This document shows positions 1 to 6,210 of a stretch of 6,622 nucleotides of DNA, in pieces. This DNA comes from Candidatus Margulisiibacteriota bacterium (lineage in GTDB: Bacteria; Margulisbacteria; WOR-1; JAUWWO01): contig JAUWWO010000022.1 of assembly GCA_030616825.1 (NCBI GenBank), positions 1 to 6,622 of the forward strand, in the 5' to 3' direction. The position numbers and the translations under genes are program-made. Positions within the stretch are counted from its first letter, which is position 1, and every line of letters begins with the position of its first letter. Below the pieces are notes generated by a model. The model was not told where the DNA came from. It worked only from the letters and a program-made list of their open reading frames with translations, and ran no database searches.

Positions 1-388
1 CTACAAACACGGCAAAAAGAGCTGTTCCCACTTTAAGGCCAATACCAATATTGCAAACTGGAATAATACCTGCGCTAAAGAGCGTATATGCCCTTCCCTT
101 TGGCAGAAGATTTAGAAAGAAATAGCCCCCAGCAAAACCAAGAAGAGCCACCCCTAGAAAGATAAGAGCCCCAACGCTCTCAAAGATTGAAGCTGCTTTC
201 TCACTTAATTTACTAAGCGGCAACGCCTTGCCAAAGGCAAGGGTCAAAAGTACAAACCCCGCAGCAATGATAACGCCTCCAGCAAAACCGCCACCCGGGG
301 TCAAGTGACCATGAAGAATAAGATATACCCCAAAGAGTATTATCAATGAAGCTAAGAGTCTAGCTACTGTCTTAACTATCAGTGTCAT
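1..388 (-). CDS. MnhB/MrpB-like (MbhF-like) membrane subunit, 3' end cut by window edge
   Basis: Integral membrane subunit of the Mrp-type Na+/H+ antiporter module that docks onto group 4 hydrogenases (MbhF position in Pyrococcus Mbh). My own translation from ATG at 388 stays open to base 1 and gives 129 residues. The family signature HGHLTPGGGFAGG lies at residues 26-38, followed by hydrophobic helices at about 39-52, 70-90 and 105-129. The end, reading NIGIGLKVGTALFAVFV, matches the last helix of MnhB proteins, so probably only some 10-20 residues are missing. The start was chosen because MTLIVKTVARLLA is the usual beginning of the family. No good Shine-Dalgarno site precedes it: the 40 bases between the upstream stop and this ATG are mostly a GCGGAT-rich repeat. 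It is the next structural gene of the hydrogenase operon after the D/E-type subunit, from which it is split by the GxxExxY gene. Family assignment is firm; the ion carried is not known. Confidence 0.9.
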   Translation of the reverse strand, partial: MTLIVKTVARLLASLIILFGVYLILHGHLTPGGGFAGGVIIAAGFVLLTLAFGKALPLSKLSEKAASIFESVGALIFLGVALLGFAGGYFFLNLLPKGRAYTLFSAGIIPVCNIGIGLKVGTALFAVFV

Positions 389-391
389 CCC

Positions 392-431
392 TAACCGCGG
401 ACTATGCAGAATTCGCGGATTACGCGGATTA
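392..431 (-). repeat. GCGGAT-rich repeat, left arm of imperfect inverted pair
   Basis: The plus strand carries stacked GCGGATT/CGCGGA units, including TTCGCGGATTACGCGGATTA at 412-431. Bases 408-428 match the reverse complement of 847-867 at 17 of 21 positions by eye, so this arm and the arm at 845-886 form an inverted pair around the GxxExxY gene. The repeat overlaps the stop codon of that gene (429-431) and fills the leader of the MnhB-like gene. A CCGCGG palindrome lies at 395-400. GCGG-rich repeats of this look are, to my recollection, common as dispersed repeats in bacterial genomes that carry many GxxExxY genes; that is not proven here. Confidence 0.75.
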
Positions 432-821
432 CTTTTTGTCATATTTTGACTCCTCACAAATGAATCTTTTAAACTCAAGTTTCTTCTTTCCAAAATTAAC
501 TAACAGCCCGACTTTATAATTTGTCGATTTTAGATATGAAATTAATTGTGCCTCATGGATTGGCTCAAGCATCGATGTCACCTTCAATTCCAGTATTACT
601 TTTTCATCCACTAAAATATCAACTCGATATTTACCTACGCTCTTGCATTTGTAAAATACAGAAATTTCTTTTTCTGCTTCTGCTTTAAGCCCCCGTAATC
701 CTAACTCATGCAATAATGCTCTTTTATAAATAACTTCTGTTAAACCTGGCCCAATATCCTTATGAACTTCAAATAAGGCTCCAATTATTTTTTCTGTAAG
801 ATTCCTATATAAAAGCTCCAT
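429..821 (-). CDS. GxxExxY family protein (PDDEXK_3-like), inserted in the hydrogenase operon
   Basis: Small soluble protein of 130 residues, the normal length for the GxxExxY family (TIGR04256/PF13366). The naming motif is seen as GLTEVIY at residues 26-32, preceded by the typical EVHKDIGPG. The rest looks like a PD-(D/E)XK nuclease core: RVD with D68, then ILELK with E78 and K80, and Q92 in AQLISYL. The biological role of the family is not established; nuclease activity is inferred from the fold. It has no link to hydrogenase chemistry. It lies between two Mrp-type subunits that would otherwise be adjacent. No clear Shine-Dalgarno site precedes the ATG (upstream is AAAAGTTTAAAA), but this start matches the family N-terminus. 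A count over 300 bases of the gene (481-780) gives about 34% G+C, against 37-60% in neighbouring 60-base lines that I counted. With the flanking inverted repeats this suggests arrival by transfer or transposition-like insertion. Confidence 0.9.
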   Translation of the reverse strand: MELLYRNLTEKIIGALFEVHKDIGPGLTEVIYKRALLHELGLRGLKAEAEKEISVFYKCKSVGKYRVDILVDEKVILELKVTSMLEPIHEAQLISYLKSTNYKVGLLVNFGKKKLEFKRFICEESKYDKK

Positions 822-839
822 TTTTAAACTTTTAAATCG

Positions 840-1409
840 TTACTCTTCCGCGACATCCGCGGTTTCTTCTTCAGCGGATTCCGCTGTTTTCTTACGTCCC
901 TTCTTTCTTAAAATTGCAATTGCTCCGATGACCGCTGTAAAAAGCACCGTTGCTTCGCCTAACGTATCATAAGCTCGATAGTCGAGTAAAACCGAAGTCA
1001 CAAGATTTGCTGCGCCGGTTTGCTTAAGTCCATTGGCGATATAATTTTTGGATACTTCCATAATCGGAATGCCAAATTGGGGTAAATCATAAAGAGCCCA
1101 AATTGAAAAGAGACCAAAGACAGCAACAAAGAGAATCATCGTCGCTAATGCAAATATCTCTTTTCTTCCGCCTTTAATTTCGGTTAAATCCTTCTTTACT
1201 CCAGTAGCTCGAATGAGTATTACCAAAACCACTATCTCCACAATTATCTGGGTGATGGCTACATCTGGTGCCCGGAGCATAAAGAAAATCAAGCACAGGA
1301 CAAATCCAACTACACCAAGAGCAACAACAGAAGACAAAAGACTTCTTATCTCAACCGCAATTACGGCCCCAATTAACACAAAGACAAGCAAAAGATAAAG
1401 CTCGATCAT
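840..1409 (-). CDS. MbhD-MbhE fused Mrp-type membrane subunit (DUF4040 + MrpA C-terminal domain)
   Basis: Membrane subunit of 189 residues combining two modules. Residues about 1-68 are a DUF4040/MbhD domain with three helices and the hallmark RAPDVAITQ at 46-54, with E58 after it. Residues about 86-168 match the MbhE/MrpA C-terminal domain: a helix at 86-106, then ANLVTSVLLDYRAYDTLGE (134-152) and a last helix at 153-168. In Pyrococcus Mbh these are separate proteins of about 100 residues each, and in Mrp antiporters both belong to MrpA. The acidic residues D49 and E58 are candidates for the ion path, by family analogy. The start is supported by a strong Shine-Dalgarno site, AGGTGAGGGG at 1422-1413, which overlaps the stop of the antiporter gene. 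The C-terminal tail (about 169-189) is a basic stretch followed by TAESAEEETADVAEE, is not family-like, and is encoded by a GCGGAT-rich repeat. Confidence 0.92.
   Translation of the reverse strand: MIELYLLLVFVLIGAVIAVEIRSLLSSVVALGVVGFVLCLIFFMLRAPDVAITQIIVEIVVLVILIRATGVKKDLTEIKGGRKEIFALATMILFVAVFGLFSIWALYDLPQFGIPIMEVSKNYIANGLKQTGAANLVTSVLLDYRAYDTLGEATVLFTAVIGAIAILRKKGRKKTAESAEEETADVAEE
845..886 (+). repeat. GCGGAT-rich repeat, right arm, translated as C-terminal tail of the D/E-type subunit
   Basis: The plus strand reads TCCGCGACATCCGCGG from 847 and then, after a TTTCTTCTTC spacer, AGCGGATTCCGCT (873-885), an exact 13-base palindrome around its centre. Bases 847-867 pair with the left arm (408-428) as an imperfect inverted repeat, 17 of 21. 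On the coding (minus) strand it contains two tandem related units, ACAGCGGAATCCGCTGAAGAA and then ACCGCGGATGTCGCGGAAGAG, giving TAESAEE-E-TADVAEE. The repeat therefore lies inside an open reading frame. Confidence 0.75.
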
Positions 1410-1412
1410 AGT

Positions 1413-1422
1413 CCCCTCACCT
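1413..1422 (-). promoter_or_regulatory. Ribosome binding site of the D/E-type subunit, embedded in the preceding stop codon
   Basis: The minus strand reads AGGTGAGGGG followed by ACT and ATG. TGA in this string (1419-1417) is the stop codon of the antiporter subunit, so termination and re-initiation are close together, which suggests translational coupling. It fixes the ATG at 1409 as the start. Confidence 0.7.
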
Positions 1423-3237
1423 AATTAAGACAATAAAAAGTAAAACAAGGCCGATCAAACACCAAGCAAGATAGGTATGCAACAACCCATCATGTATTCG
1501 CCGCAGTACCTGAAAGAAGAAAAAGGTAACCTTAGATAAAATCTCATATATATCGTAAAGCTTTGCCTCAGCCTCATCATAGAACTCAGCCACTATGGGA
1601 AGTTCTCTTATTGTATCATAGAAGCGAACCCCGGATACCTTAAGCCTTTCCTCTGGTATAACTTCTCCTCCTATAAACGCAGCATCACGCCTCACACCTT
1701 TGGTTTTCCCTAAAAAGTAGATCCCAGCTCCAATGGCAAGACCAACTATTATCAACGTAGCAGCTAGTACCGGAGACCACAGTCCCGAGAAGAACACAAA
1801 GGGAATGACAGGTAATATAAAATAGTGGAGTGGAAGCTCGAAAGCAAAGATCCCAAAGAGGACACAAAGCACTGCCAGGATGACCATGGGAATCCACATA
1901 GCCGGTGGCGTCTCTTTAATGCTCCCTGGCTTTATCTCCACACTCATCTTACCCAAAAATGTGGCATGGATTAATTTCATAAATGAGGCCAGAGTCAAAG
2001 CACTGCCAAACATGGCCGCAACTAACCAGATGATCCACCATCCCCCTCCACTTTTGCCAAGCTCTATGACACCCTGATATATCATCCACTTCGAGAAGAA
2101 CCCATTAAACGGTGGAATACCGGAGATGGCAAGCGCTGCAATGAGTGTTGTTATAAAAGTTATAGGCATGACACTGGCCAGCCCGCCAAGTTTATCAAGC
2201 TCAGAAGTTCCCGCCTCTCGCTCAACTGCTCCGCCCCCCAAAAAGAGGCAACACTTATATATAGCATGGTTTATCATGTGGAAAAGGCCGCCAGCTATTC
2301 CTACAGGTACACCTGTTCCGATTCCCATAACCATGTAACCAACCTGACTCACTGCATGAAAGGATAGAAGTTTCTTTAAATTATGTTGCACAAGAGCGGC
2401 AAGAACTGCTGCAATAATCGTTACTGACCCCACAGTGAGAAGCACCACGGACATAAAAGAGTTTGGAACAATGATAAATAAATCAAGGGAAATCCTGGCC
2501 AAAAGATAGATCCCCAGGAGTTTATCAAGCGATGCCGGCAAATAGGCCATAACAGAAGTTGGCGCCACTTCTGCAGAATCTGGTATCCATGTGTGAAATG
2601 GAATTGCTCCTGCTTTCGCCAAGGCAGGAGCAGCCAGAGCAAGATAAGCTATAATCGGAAGTGCTCCCTGAAGAGGAAGTCGTATGGAATCCATATCGAA
2701 TGTCCCGGTCAGATACCAGATTATCGAAATGCCCAGGACCATGATCGCATCTGTTCCGCCTACAATGACAAAAGTTTTCTTGGCAGCACCTGTAGCATTT
2801 GGTCCTCCAAGATTTATAAGATTGTACAGGGTTAGACCCGAAATTCCCCAGAAAACCAGGAAGATTACAAGGTTAGTTGAAAGTACTGCTCCGCAAGATG
2901 CACCAAGCGTTATCAGAATATTCCCATAATATTCATTTACACGCTCCATTTTCTCTATAAACTTCAGGGAATAAATTACGATAATGCAAGAGAAGAAAGC
3001 AATGGCCATAAGAATAAAGGCACTCAGATCATAACTTTTAAGACTAAATCTGATTCCCATTTCGCCAAGATCAAAACCAAATTGTAGGTTCCCTCCTACG
3101 AAGATCAGTACGGACAGAATAAAAGTGAAAACAGTGACAGCAAACGATATACTCCAGATCTTTCTCTTAAAGCACATGACAAGAAGACCGAAAATAATAG
3201 GCACAAAAATTGGATAAAGTAAAATATTGTTACTCAT
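1417..3237 (-). CDS. NuoL/MrpD-like (MbhH-like) antiporter subunit with long C-terminal arm
   Basis: Polytopic proton/Na+-translocating subunit of 606 residues, about 100 longer than archaeal MbhH. The proton-conducting membrane transporter domain spans roughly 70-430. Visible family motifs are LAKAGAIPFHTWIPDS (206-221; K208, H215), PTSVMAYLPASLDKLLGIYLLAR (226-248; K239), HNLKKLLSFHAVSQVGYM (285-302), the LFHMINHAIYKCCLF helix (318-332; H320, H324, K328) and SGIPPFNGFFSKW (372-384; K383). At the usual TM5 glutamate the sequence reads VFWGISGLTLYNLI, with G131 where other members have WE; D163 in TM6 is kept. After helices at about 445-510, a region rich in charged and aromatic residues (520-590) resembles the amphipathic lateral helix of NuoL/HyfB or MbhI, and a final helix spans 590-605. 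The start overlaps the large-subunit stop as ATGA, and AAAGG lies upstream of it. Confidence 0.93.
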   Translation of the reverse strand: MSNNILLYPIFVPIIFGLLVMCFKRKIWSISFAVTVFTFILSVLIFVGGNLQFGFDLGEMGIRFSLKSYDLSAFILMAIAFFSCIIVIYSLKFIEKMERVNEYYGNILITLGASCGAVLSTNLVIFLVFWGISGLTLYNLINLGGPNATGAAKKTFVIVGGTDAIMVLGISIIWYLTGTFDMDSIRLPLQGALPIIAYLALAAPALAKAGAIPFHTWIPDSAEVAPTSVMAYLPASLDKLLGIYLLARISLDLFIIVPNSFMSVVLLTVGSVTIIAAVLAALVQHNLKKLLSFHAVSQVGYMVMGIGTGVPVGIAGGLFHMINHAIYKCCLFLGGGAVEREAGTSELDKLGGLASVMPITFITTLIAALAISGIPPFNGFFSKWMIYQGVIELGKSGGGWWIIWLVAAMFGSALTLASFMKLIHATFLGKMSVEIKPGSIKETPPAMWIPMVILAVLCVLFGIFAFELPLHYFILPVIPFVFFSGLWSPVLAATLIIVGLAIGAGIYFLGKTKGVRRDAAFIGGEVIPEERLKVSGVRFYDTIRELPIVAEFYDEAEAKLYDIYEILSKVTFFFFQVLRRIHDGLLHTYLAWCLIGLVLLFIVLIR

Positions 3238-4415
3238 AACAGACCTTTAAGTTTTTCCGTTTTCTCCTGAGAGAGCTTGATGAGATCCTGACCATTAAAA
3301 AGCCCCTTCCCTGTTTCGCAGTCTACTGCCGCCGTTCTCTCAGTACAACAATAGCATGGATCAACTGCAGCAAGTATGAGTGCTGCATCGGCAATGGACT
3401 CTCCAATAATCGTCCTCTTGAAAGAGGGGACATTCATAAACGATGGAGCCCTGATTTTAACACGCTCAGGGTAGTTGCCTCCATTTGACCTGATATAATG
3501 AAAGACTTCTCCGCGAGGAGCCTCATGTACTCCTATGCCTTCGCCTTTTGGGATCTCCCAGACCTCTACCTCTATTGGTCCCTTTGGGAGTCCTTTAAGG
3601 CATTGTCTCACGATATTTACGGATTCCCTGATCTCAAGAAGCCGCACGACCGCCTTTGCAAAAACATCGCCTTCTTCACGGACGATTACCTTCCAATCGA
3701 CTTTATCATAAGCAGCATAGGGATGATCACGTCTCACATCTATTGCTACTCCAGACGGCCTTGCGGTTGGTCCAGTTACAGACAGTGCTATTGCATCTTC
3801 TTTCTTCAGCACACCAATCCCTTTGAGTCTTGCCTGTATTACCGGATCATCAAGCACTGCCCCAGTTAACATCTTTGTAAAAGAGTCAACTTCACCCAGG
3901 GCCTTAAGAAGATCAGGAATATCCTCTGCTTTGATGTCGCGCCTAACACCGCCAACCTTAAACATCGCATAATGGTTTCTGTTTCCTGATATCCTCTCAT
4001 ACATATCAAGCACCGGCTCCCTGTATCTCCATGCCCACATAAATACCGTATTGTATCCTATAAAATGCCCGGCAAGTCCAACCCAGAGTAAGTGACTGTG
4101 AATCCTCTCAAGTTCGCCAATTATCGTCCTTATGTAATGCGCCCTCTCAGGAACCTCAATGCCTGATACATCCTCAGCTGCTTGAACATAGGCAAATGGA
4201 TGCGAAGTTGAACAAATCCCGCAAATACGCTCCACCAAGAATACTCCCTGCTCATAGGTCTTACTCTCAGCAAGCTTCTCAATTCCCCTGTGGTTATATC
4301 CTATCCGGGCCTCTATATCGACGACCTTCTCCCCTTCAACCTTCAACGTAAAGAATTCTGGTTCCTCCTGAAGAGGATGAAATGGTCCTATCGGTATTAT
4401 GCACTCTTTCGCCAT
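3234..4415 (-). CDS. Group 4 [NiFe] hydrogenase large (catalytic) subunit, NuoD/MbhL-like
   Basis: Catalytic subunit (393 residues) that would reduce protons to H2 or oxidise H2 at a Ni-Fe(CN)2CO site on the cytoplasmic face. Both ligand pairs are present: VERICGICSTSH at 61-72 (C65, C68) and DPCYCCTER at 352-360 (C354, C357). Complex I NuoD lacks these cysteines, so this is a true hydrogenase. EAPRG at 298-302 is the conserved active-site-neighbouring motif of the superfamily. The N-terminal GPFHPLQEEPEFF and the WRYREPVLDMYERISGNR segment (129-146) are typical of group 4 enzymes. Residues after R360 form a 33-residue tail that may be removed by an endopeptidase of the HycI type after metal insertion, as in HycE. 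The extra cysteines C356 and C366 near the site are unusual. Subgroup within group 4 was not resolved; Mrp-type neighbours favour an Mrp-linked type. The start follows GGGAG, and the upstream stop is directly adjacent. Confidence 0.96.
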   Translation of the reverse strand: MAKECIIPIGPFHPLQEEPEFFTLKVEGEKVVDIEARIGYNHRGIEKLAESKTYEQGVFLVERICGICSTSHPFAYVQAAEDVSGIEVPERAHYIRTIIGELERIHSHLLWVGLAGHFIGYNTVFMWAWRYREPVLDMYERISGNRNHYAMFKVGGVRRDIKAEDIPDLLKALGEVDSFTKMLTGAVLDDPVIQARLKGIGVLKKEDAIALSVTGPTARPSGVAIDVRRDHPYAAYDKVDWKVIVREEGDVFAKAVVRLLEIRESVNIVRQCLKGLPKGPIEVEVWEIPKGEGIGVHEAPRGEVFHYIRSNGGNYPERVKIRAPSFMNVPSFKRTIIGESIADAALILAAVDPCYCCTERTAAVDCETGKGLFNGQDLIKLSQEKTEKLKGLL

Positions 4416-4847
4416 TTACTCTCCCTTTCTTAATGGATAAACGCCATCGGGCCAGTCATCTGCAAGAAGCAGTTTTACTAAATTTGGATGCCCAATGAAA
4501 TTCACGCCGAGCAGTTCGTGTATCTCTCTCTCTATCCAGTCGGCCGCTGGCATAAAACTTGTAGCACTAGGCATCTCCGGATATGGTTTCTCTGCTAGGG
4601 TCCGAACTGTTATTACCCTACCGGTTTTATCGTCGGACATATGATAAAGAATCTCGATACCCTCCCGGGTATCAACCCCTGAGGCAATGGCAAACCTTAA
4701 TCTCTCATCTAAAAAAAGGAACTTAACAACCTCCAGAGCATCCTTTTTGTTAGATGCGTTTACATAAATCCTCTTCGTGTTCTTCTCGAAGACCTCTATC
4801 TTCTTCCCGAACTTTTCTTTTAATCTATCTATAATATCCCCTGCCAT
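4416..4847 (-). CDS. NuoC/MbhK-like 30 kDa-type hydrogenase subunit
   Basis: Peripheral, cofactor-free subunit that packs against the large subunit in group 4 hydrogenases and complex I. At 143 residues it is short for the family. The diagnostic C-terminal block is clear: WIEREIHELLGVNFIGHP at 104-121, then LLADDWPDGVYPLRK at 127-141, which matches the Complex1_30kDa signature of ERE-x-x-D/E-L-x-G followed by GHP and DDWP-x-GVYPLRK. The N-terminal half (about 1-85) is a mixed alpha/beta domain with weak identity to the family. The start is fixed by GAGGAG (4858-4853) five bases before the ATG. The stop codon TAA directly abuts the ATG of the large subunit, so the two are very likely translated together in equal amounts, as expected for partners. 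Confidence 0.94.
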   Translation of the reverse strand: MAGDIIDRLKEKFGKKIEVFEKNTKRIYVNASNKKDALEVVKFLFLDERLRFAIASGVDTREGIEILYHMSDDKTGRVITVRTLAEKPYPEMPSATSFMPAADWIEREIHELLGVNFIGHPNLVKLLLADDWPDGVYPLRKGE

Positions 4848-4857
4848 GCAGTCTCCT

Positions 4858-5271
4858 CTACAGTTTTTTTAACGCCTTCACGATCCCGGAAATTATTGCC
4901 TCTGGCTTTGGAGGACACCCAGGAACATATATATCCACAGGAATAATCTTATCCAAAGGCATAACATAATTGTAACTATCCCTGAACATATGCCCGGTAA
5001 GTGGACAGGACCCAATGGCTACCACTATTTTTGGATTAGGTGTTTGCTCATAAACTCTCTTCACCCTGGGAAGAGCATGTCTATTTATCATGCCCGACAC
5101 AAGAAGCACATCCGCGTGCCTCGGGGAACCAACCAGAAGTATGCCAAACCTCTCCACATCAAAGCGTGGGGTTAAACAATCAATGACCTCTATGTCACAA
5201 TTATTGCAACCAGAAGCGCCTAGGTGAAAAACCCAGGGAGATTTCTTTAACCCCCATTTAAACAGATTCAT
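4858..5271 (-). CDS. Hydrogenase small subunit, NuoB/MbhJ-like, proximal [4Fe-4S] cluster
   Basis: Electron-transfer subunit carrying the [4Fe-4S] cluster nearest the Ni-Fe site. The protein has 137 residues, a normal length for the short group 4 form without the medial and distal clusters of periplasmic hydrogenases. Ligands visible by position are C22 and C25 in SGCNNCDIE, C89 in AIGSCPLTG and C119 in VPGCPPKPEAI. The CxxC spacing of the first pair is the hydrogenase form, whereas complex I NuoB has adjacent cysteines there. C32 is an additional non-ligand cysteine. There is no Tat signal, which fits a cytoplasm-facing complex. The gene starts four bases after the NuoH-like stop, and GGAG lies eight bases before the ATG. 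Together with the large subunit this defines the hydrogenase catalytic core. Confidence 0.96.
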   Translation of the reverse strand: MNLFKWGLKKSPWVFHLGASGCNNCDIEVIDCLTPRFDVERFGILLVGSPRHADVLLVSGMINRHALPRVKRVYEQTPNPKIVVAIGSCPLTGHMFRDSYNYVMPLDKIIPVDIYVPGCPPKPEAIISGIVKALKKL

Positions 5272-5274
5272 AGC

Positions 5275-6210
5275 TCACACTCCAAACATGGCAAGCACAA
5301 AACCAAGAATTGCCAGCGCCATCATCGGCCCCCAAAACAGCTTTATTACTTGATCAATCCTAAGCCTTGGATTTGTGTTTCTGATTAAAGTTATTAAAAC
5401 CAGAATAAGAACATACTTTAGTGCAAAATAACCGATTCCCCCACCTGAGCTTAAATCAACCCCGCCAAAAAAAAGTGTAATCAGCAAAACAGGAAGCGTT
5501 GCCAGCATCATTGCTTTAGTAAGTTTATATATCGCAAGCAGAGGTCCGGAGTATTCAATGAACGCACCCCCTACAATCTCCTGCTCTGCTTCTGGAGCAT
5601 CAAAAGGAACAAGTGCAAGTTTTGCTTGAGAACAAAGCAGCGCAACAATAAAGGCAACAATACAAGATGGAGATGCAATCATCATTCCATTAATAGATTG
5701 GTATTTCAAAATTTCGCCAAACAGTATCGAGCCCGTTTTGGCTACAACTGTAAATACTGCGATGATAAAGGGTAACTCATATGCCAGTATCAACTTCATC
5801 TCTCTGCTTGACCCTAAAGCTGCAAGGGGATTACCGGAAGAAAACCCTCCAAGTATTATGGCGAGTGACGGGAGAAGAAGAAGATATAAAACCACAATCA
5901 GGTCGCCAATAAATGTTACTCCCACATTCATATTCAGAACCCAAAGCATGGTGGACACAAGGGTAACCCCAGCAAGGCCTACCATCGGAGAGGCTACAAA
6001 GGCAGCAACTGAAGCTCCTCTGGGGATTATGGTTTCCTTACCCAGGAGCTTTAATATATCTGCAAATGGCTGATACCATGGAGGTCCCACTCTCCACTGA
6101 ACGCGCGCAGTTACTTTTCTGTCTACAAAGCTCGAGATGAGTCCCAACGCAGCTGTAAACAAAAAACCAGGAAATATTATAAATTTATATAGAATATCTA
6201 AAATCATCAT
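5275..6210 (-). CDS. NuoH/MbhM-like membrane anchor subunit
   Basis: Membrane subunit that forms the interface between the hydrogenase core and the ion-pumping arm. It has 311 residues and about eight hydrophobic helices, close to the family length of 300-330. Conserved loops can be read in order: DRKVTARVQWRVGPPW (30-45), ADILKLLGKE (50-59), SSREMKLILAYELPF (134-148), VPFDAPEAEQEIVGG (201-215) with EYSGP (219-223), and RNTNPRLRIDQ (277-287). The acidic loop around D204-E211 and E219 corresponds to the proton/ion entry funnel known in NuoH and MbhM. The start is ATGATG; the first ATG is used here, but the second (6207) is equally possible because there is no strong Shine-Dalgarno site and translation may be coupled to the TPR gene ending four bases upstream. 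It leads the order M-J-K-L, unlike Pyrococcus Mbh where M follows L. Confidence 0.95.
   Translation of the reverse strand: MMILDILYKFIIFPGFLFTAALGLISSFVDRKVTARVQWRVGPPWYQPFADILKLLGKETIIPRGASVAAFVASPMVGLAGVTLVSTMLWVLNMNVGVTFIGDLIVVLYLLLLPSLAIILGGFSSGNPLAALGSSREMKLILAYELPFIIAVFTVVAKTGSILFGEILKYQSINGMMIASPSCIVAFIVALLCSQAKLALVPFDAPEAEQEIVGGAFIEYSGPLLAIYKLTKAMMLATLPVLLITLFFGGVDLSSGGGIGYFALKYVLILVLITLIRNTNPRLRIDQVIKLFWGPMMALAILGFVLAMFGV

Follow-up and report, generated by a model that had tools for sequence, protein, structure and literature searches.

The locus raises the question of why a compact hydrogenase operon opens at a single junction to hold a small gene of another family, and what the repeats on both sides of that gene represent. 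The minus strand of the window, i.e., of the whole 6,622-nucleotide stretch analysed here, encodes an operon for a membrane-bound hydrogenase, as recognized from its ORFs and Pfam profiles; the large subunit is nearest to loci labelled Candidatus Margulisiibacteriota, with a best identity of 77%. The first-pass annotation of this DNA had pointed to a gap of 451 bases amid junctions of -4 to +10, and the ORF coordinates bear out both figures: 451 nt, holding the GxxExxY gene, separate the stop codon of the MbhD/MbhE-type fused subunit (MbhDE; 840) from the start of the MnhB-like subunit (388), whereas the remaining junctions, including those of the genes at 1417..6210, measure -4 to +10 nt. For MnhB, the start was placed at the ATG in agreement with relatives, the ORF listing alone having a longer frame from a TTG; this start codon lies 4 nt from the end of the unit described below. 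The GC content is 0.34-0.36 near the GxxExxY gene and 0.36-0.49 elsewhere, apart from a second dip at about 2901-3300, because of which the gene, although richer in AT as had been proposed, is not uniquely so.

Table 1. Features of the window, with positions numbered from its first letter
Feature	Positions	Strand	Description and basis
Whole unit	393..888	.	496 bp; AACC-type outer end at 393, GTT-type at 888; arm alignment
Left arm, downstream of GxxExxY	393..431	+	Units from 396: CGCGGACTA, TGCAGAATT, CGCGGATTA, CGCGGATTA
GxxExxY protein, 130 aa	429..821	-	TIGR04256 141.5 bits, PF13366, alignment, model pLDDT 93.4
Right arm, upstream of GxxExxY	847..888	-	Inverted copy of the array; overlaps the MbhDE coding end
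MnhB-like subunit	2..388	-	Host operon, runs off the window; PF04039 E 7e-27; start matched to relatives
MbhD/MbhE-type fused subunit (MbhDE)	840..1409	-	Host operon; PF13244 and PF20501; tails of relatives
Rest of host operon	1417..6210	-	NuoL/Mnh-like, large subunit (49 kDa type), 30 kDa type, 20 kDa type and NADHdh-type genes; Pfam

The GxxExxY gene lies between two arms that are inverted arrays of the 9-nt unit CGCGGATTA (Table 1). The left arm consists of four such units (396-431), two of them decayed, and contains the GxxExxY stop codon (429-431). The right arm codes for the tail of MbhDE, GRKK|TAESAEEETADVAEE, and for its stop, the last codons and the stop being in or beside the arm. 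The outer matches in the arm alignment are AACCGCGGA (393-401) and TCCGCTGTT (880-888); both ends of the unit were set by inspection, with no empty site from the same species among those seen, and its length is about 496 bp. A look at these ends by eye revealed no target-site duplication. Between the arms, ORFs and TIGR04256/Pfam profiles yield GxxExxY as the sole family match and no transposase gene. The inverted repeat reported earlier (408-428 against 847-867) was recovered at the same 17/21, a match that 0 of 300 dinucleotide shuffles of both flanks reached. GCGGA/TCCGC words number 14 in the window, 7 of them within 83 nt of arms, with the caveat that the word was picked after being seen. 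When 150-nt flanks are compared by a general gapped score, the window attains 14, as do 5.8% of 1138 control genes, so that the window alone is only moderately unusual; the convincing case is the family-wide comparison.

The protein is a clear member of its family. It matches TIGR04256 over residues 8-121 (E 1.4e-41; 141.5 bits against a curated cut-off of 35) and PF13366 (E 1.4e-39; 135.5 bits against a cut-off of 22), the latter being its only Pfam match at E 0.001. Residues D68, E78, K80 and Q92 occupy invariant columns among 62 aligned family proteins and are presumably the catalytic residues of the PD-(D/E)XK type. A fold search returned Cas4/RecB-type neighbours, and PADLOC matched the window protein to Cas4b at E 0.005, with no match for a planctomycete member of the family (L225). 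A sequence-profile search of the PDB gave 0 matches, as did Rfam in six sources. One query of viral contigs found no relative; 0 of 50,697 phage records and 8 of 72,556 plasmid records matched, so that carriage by phages is not supported, although a paper on an algal virus contains the term GxxExxY once (PMC12085832).

Flanks were compared across the family by the best local alignment of the upstream flank with the reverse complement of the downstream flank, the threshold of 17 being the 99th percentile of the 1138 control genes; the upstream flank begins at the tblastn match for GxxExxY genes and at the start codon for control ORFs. Most of the genomes compared are drafts, and the phylum labels follow the centre loci L003, L060 and L074. 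Many GxxExxY loci of Margulisiibacteriota have short repeats upstream and inverted copies of them downstream, with a unit that differs by locus. For 25 genes taken from 33 loci of this phylum (partial matches, contig edges and L093 left out), the mean score of a gene's own arms is 22.0, compared with 11.1 between loci. For 57 genes at 56 of 60 loci of Bacteroidota and Planctomycetota, the corresponding means are 20.3 and 10.7; 35 of the 57 exceed 17, and 23 exceed the 99th percentile of between-locus pairs. Among hold-out loci, inverted flanks above 17 were found at 38/59 GxxExxY loci and at 9/182 other ORFs (Fisher p 9e-21), which leaves 21 of the 59 below the threshold. It should be noted that loci rather than genomes were held out, the genomes having been used already, that L312 and L317 nearly duplicate L138 and L140, and that the 182 ORFs were drawn from all scored loci, with L351 omitted as a repeat of L225. 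Most scored GxxExxY loci, then, have an anatomy similar to that of the window. Direct arm similarity is above its own control 99th percentile at 15/57 and 15/59 loci, and the arms of some genes (L100, L092, L410) are direct, not inverted. Loci from the plasmid collection are divided, two of five passing the threshold and three missing it. A separate observation concerns the four-helix-bundle family TIGR02436, which we take to be named from 23S intervening-sequence elements: at 11 of the 21 Bacteroidota loci scored out of 30 (L268-L297), inverted short-repeat flanks are above the control 99th percentile, with units of another class (AAGTATCAAGAT, CAGTAATCAGT, GAAAAGAAGAAAGA).

The description of the repeat as GCGGAT-rich proved too narrow, as the unit sequence varies by locus. 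Many units fit CRCNRAK, for example, CACGAAG, CGCAGAT, CGCGGAT and CACAGAG, and the outer ends, judged by eye, are often AACC...GGTT. Around and within 141 genes, a set that contains the very loci used to derive the unit and is not a hold-out, the density of CRCNRAK is 14.6/kb upstream (plus orientation), 17.7/kb downstream (minus orientation) and about 2/kb inside genes. A pattern of two units with AACC is present at 8/30 Bacteroidota, 12/30 Planctomycetota and 3/34 Margulisiibacteriota loci and at 1/80 operon loci. A second type of arm starts with TGTCTGAATCAGGATTT.

Arms and proteins are linked between loci as well. The similarity of arms from different loci climbs with protein identity, from a mean of 12.3 at 20-35% to 22.9 at 65-80% (rho 0.30), as computed for the 114 of 143 genes whose arms score at least 15; the pairs are non-independent and include orthologous places. 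One gene-plus-arms unit occurs in two phyla among unrelated neighbours: L099 (Margulisiibacteriota) and L143 (Bacteroidota) have 80% protein identity and identical termini next to different neighbours, and their blastn similarity stops at the arms. A mis-binned contig is a possible source of this sharing. At L081, L082, L084 and L096, by contrast with such dispersed copies, four Margulisiibacteriota genomes have GxxExxY at what seems to be one place, between putative comEA- and comEC-like genes, so that some copies look vertically kept; here the arms match within each genome and differ between genomes. The names comEA, comEC, radC, hsdM, hsdS, rarA and rex, and the transposase type at L210 (below), were read from translations.

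Relatives of the host operon supply empty sites. A comparison of orthologous operons had been proposed in the first-pass annotation, and it came out in favour of an insertion: the MbhDE and MnhB genes are in order in 55 of 80 operon relatives, and GxxExxY is between or near them in 0 of these 55. Their MbhDE-MnhB gap has a median of 17 nt and a range of -176 to 279, with three above 100. Within the host phylum, L007 alone gives an empty-site comparison, because L001-L005 are without the two genes in order. Among 25 inspected MbhDE ends of relatives, 9 stop at most 2 residues from GRKK, where the arm-encoded tail of the window protein starts; other relatives (L042, L071, L075) carry acidic tails of up to about 15 residues. 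Given these acidic tails, the window's MbhDE could either have gained its tail recently or have an earlier tail there that the arm overlaps, and 888 is uncertain as the end of the unit. A second example comes from Bacteroidales. The radA gene and an FAD-dependent gene of Bacteroides finegoldii are separated by a GxxExxY gene whose arms read CACCACAGAGGACGCAGAGG...CCTCTGTGTCCTCTGTGGTG; in Parabacteroides distasonis, these two neighbours are 13 nt apart with no arrays, and in Phocaeicola massiliensis a different coding-like sequence lies between them. The empty sites, both in the hydrogenase operons and in the Bacteroidales pair, could represent losses instead of gains. Elsewhere in B. finegoldii (L412, about 3001-3060), a gene-less hairpin of the window's motif (GCGCGGATTACGCGGATTACACGGATT...AATCCGCGC) is situated between secG and an MFS transporter gene.

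Gene-less hairpins built of related units are dispersed in some GxxExxY-bearing genomes. Arrays were counted with the general pattern AACCRCNRAK-N1-3-CRCNRAK, with the reversed pattern as control, and in many genomes the former far exceeds the latter. The planctomycete genome G488 has 665 matches of at least two motif types against 2 of the control, and 16 of the 23 matches listed form inverted pairs with a spacing of about 50 nt. Of the two GxxExxY genes in this genome, one (L225) encodes a protein 38% identical to that of the window and is framed by the window's own motif. The gene-less pairs inspected in G488 read GGTT-spacer-AACC, opposite to the arms around its GxxExxY gene, and are thus not simply the element minus its gene; this orientation is left unexplained by a simple element model. 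In G485, which has 230 matches, 18 of the listed loci were sampled with preference for paired ones, and 9 of these carry a family of 64-79-nt hairpins with a variable count of 10-nt units; the sequence outside the hairpins is mostly unrelated, with some right flank shared by L388 and L390, and the GxxExxY gene of this genome (L402) lies within a cluster of the same arrays. Inverted pairs also occur in G493 and G101. Four chosen hairpins fold, under RNA parameters, with z scores of -4.0, -4.3, -12.3 and -7.3. In G101, four GxxExxY copies (L210, L213, L214, L217), in segments 97-99% identical, are within a larger repeat (GTATATATTCACTGAACCACG...), which shows 8-bp flanking duplications by eye at L210 and L213 and none at L214, L217 being cut off; L210 also carries an inserted transposase-like gene.

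Array-rich genomes mostly encode GxxExxY, with exceptions. At least five matches are present in 19 of 28 Bacteroidota genomes with GxxExxY and in 1 of 33 without it (61 genomes; Fisher p 3.7e-8; rank correlation 0.72), and the corresponding counts for 59 Planctomycetota genomes are 16/27 and 5/32 (p 8.6e-4; rho 0.50). In Bacteroidota, the partial correlation is 0.57 for GxxExxY and 0.13 for four-helix-bundle copies. These genome-level statistics ignore the relatedness of genomes, and the link is partly self-made because each GxxExxY gene brings its own arms: sampled loci hold 13 matches per 30 in Bacteroidota and 26 per 30 in Planctomycetota. After subtraction of one match per gene, the Fisher p is 1.2e-5 and 8.6e-4, respectively; after subtraction of two, it is 3.7e-3 and 1.0e-2, and the rank correlation is weak or absent. 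The exceptions, array-rich with no TIGR04256 match, are the planctomycete genomes G453 (62 matches), G483 (107), G495 (87) and G477 (13) and, in Bacteroidota, G429 (7).

With moderate confidence, we read the 393-888 unit as a small mobile element, RAYT/REPIN-like in its logic, that employs a PD-(D/E)XK nuclease and no known transposase, and that settled in the mbhDE-mnhB gap with neither gene broken. Such an element would consist of one PD-(D/E)XK gene (GxxExxY) between inverted short-unit arrays serving as its ends. On insertion into the gap, the right arm would have come to supply the MbhDE tail and stop. The arms would fold into hairpins in single-stranded DNA, the GxxExxY nuclease would recognise and process these hairpins, and arm copies, whether accompanied by the gene or not, would spread to other intergenic gaps, the gene-less hairpins being mobilised in trans. 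We infer the movement of the element from comparison of sequences, and the same holds for GxxExxY as the moving enzyme, for hairpin DNA as its substrate and for movement of gene-less copies in trans; gene and arms co-occur, and the nuclease may act on the arms. The earlier idea that gene plus repeats form a transposase-free mobile unit gains from the unfilled operons (0/55), the hold-out loci (38/59 vs 9/182), the same termini in two phyla and the Bacteroidales pair, and is limited by the four Margulisiibacteriota genomes with GxxExxY at the comEA/comEC-like place. Vertical descent at one place, which would speak against mobility, was not found at the hydrogenase locus, while some copies elsewhere look vertical.

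Other readings of the same data should be considered. GxxExxY may be a homing-type settler: it would cut intergenic hairpin arrays that another system had already made, and repair would copy the gene into these arrays, which would be landing sites rather than ends. This would suit the abundance of gene-less arrays, the array-rich genomes with no TIGR04256 match and the single enclosing repeat of G101 that exists both with and without the gene (L210, L213). We consider it improbable, given that gene and arms are common to two phyla, that arm similarity tracks protein identity, that the P. distasonis gap has no array, and that at least five matches were found in only 1/33 Bacteroidota genomes without the gene as against 19/28 with it. 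The gene might alternatively be a passenger, taken along for the ride while an unrelated transposase moves the arms in trans, as with MITEs. In its favour, the unit of G101 is enclosed in a larger repeat, two copies of which show 8-bp duplications by eye and one of these a putative inserted transposase-like gene. Against it, the family that accompanies widely differing arms across several phyla is always GxxExxY. Y1 transposases, the type counted, are moreover unsupported as the driver: in 41 of the 59 Planctomycetota genomes, picked with array-rich ones first, Y1 copies do not track match density (rho 0.17, compared with 0.45 for GxxExxY in the same genomes), the AACC pattern is present at 1/30 Y1 loci versus 12/30 GxxExxY loci, and G485 has no Y1 match despite its 230 pattern matches. 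A passenger role is in our opinion unlikely.

An explanation at the level of RNA appears very unlikely to us. It holds that the arms form a stem around the GxxExxY message that RNase III excises, as it does with intervening sequences of 23S rRNA, the insert thereby being silent in the operon transcript. The arms are indeed inverted and matched within a locus, and flanks of TIGR02436 four-helix-bundle genes are likewise inverted (11/21 loci); in Coxiella, RNase III cuts out a 23S intervening sequence that is bounded by terminal inverted repeats (PMC4990558). The pairing of the arms is, however, imperfect, with the variable unit position often mismatched (L081, L082), gene-less hairpins are dispersed, and excision from mRNA would sever the operon transcript.

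For the mobile-element reading, RAYT/REPIN systems are the closest known kind, by analogy of logic. In these systems, a chromosomal DNA-processing gene is flanked by repeats that are dispersed as gene-less inverted pairs (PMC3116915, PMC3733652). The repeats studied here are similarly dispersed as inverted, hairpin-forming doublets (16/23 listed matches in G488; also G485, G493 and G101), and in G488 (L225, with the opposite pair orientation) and G485 (L402) the repeat that flanks the gene also recurs elsewhere in that genome. The differences are that the window enzyme is of the PD-(D/E)XK type, not an HUH/Y1 tyrosine transposase; that the sampled hairpins end in AACC/GGTT and are not GTAG-tagged, the sample having been drawn with the AACC pattern; that GxxExxY units are variable, at 7-10 nt; and that genomes hold up to 12 GxxExxY-family matches, fragments included. 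Since enzyme and GTAG tag are both different, the unit is not classed as a RAYT/REPIN member. A 2013 survey (PMC3733652) describes two further relatives in form, namely, dispersed CGTC-tagged palindromes without a known dedicated transposase and TIRtrons, in which RAYT transposase genes lie between long terminal inverted repeats; tags and enzyme family differ from those of the GxxExxY unit in both. The 23S rRNA intervening sequence with its S23 ORF is also a lone small ORF between inverted repeats that is scattered among bacteria (PMC4990558), whereas the GxxExxY unit resides in a hydrogenase operon, not in rRNA, and encodes a protein of another family; TIGR02436 loci, for their part, show a different unit class. 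A classical insertion sequence would have a transposase gene between its terminal repeats, whereas GxxExxY is the only family match between the window's arms; by eye, no target-site duplication was visible at the ends of the unit, the 8-bp pairs of G101 belonging to the larger repeat. PD-(D/E)XK homing endonucleases and TnsA of Tn7 are nucleases that drive the movement of their own DNA, but neither an intron nor a partner transposase is present between the GxxExxY arms.

More broadly, and tentatively, GxxExxY proteins may be the enzymes of a phylum-spanning class of mobile DNA, mobilising not only their own ends but also, in trans, gene-less hairpins by the tens to hundreds; many palindromes between genes of Bacteroidota, Planctomycetota and candidate phyla would then share one driver, unrelated to known transposases, with TIGR02436 perhaps a parallel system with its own unit class. 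If true, a widespread family of nucleases whose function is unknown would acquire a substrate and a role, one class of hairpins found between genes in several phyla would be accounted for, and RAYT/REPIN-like DNA mobility would be seen to exist with an unrelated enzyme. Some odd protein ends, such as that of MbhDE, where arms overlap the coding ends of neighbours, would likewise find an explanation. Even with a nuclease inactive on the arms, the fixed pairing of one gene family with locus-specific inverted arrays needs explaining. Among the papers listed in searches of open-licence literature, with subscription journals mostly outside their scope, none describes arrays that flank GxxExxY genes.

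Some minor observations should be added. The exact tandem motif CGCGGATTNCGCGGATT was rejected as a genome-wide tag, being too narrow: it is present in 1/74 Margulisiibacteriota genomes, inside a rex-like gene, in 0/34 other relatives and in 4/285 Omnitrophota, with a GxxExxY match at 0 of these 4 loci. In the omnitrophote locus L118 (about 1501-1525), where no GxxExxY match was found, an array of CGCGGATTA supplies the opening codons (MKNADYADLF) of a gene for a RarA-like ATPase, and in L117 (about 1501) one intergenic region combines CGCGGATTT, AACTACGAACTAC with its inverse, and CCTTTATCC. A second group of GxxExxY genes in Margulisiibacteriota (L087-L092, L102-L113), about 40% identical to the queries, often has a Shine-Dalgarno-like AGGAGG upstream together with a recurring GGTAATAACATTGCT-like stretch.
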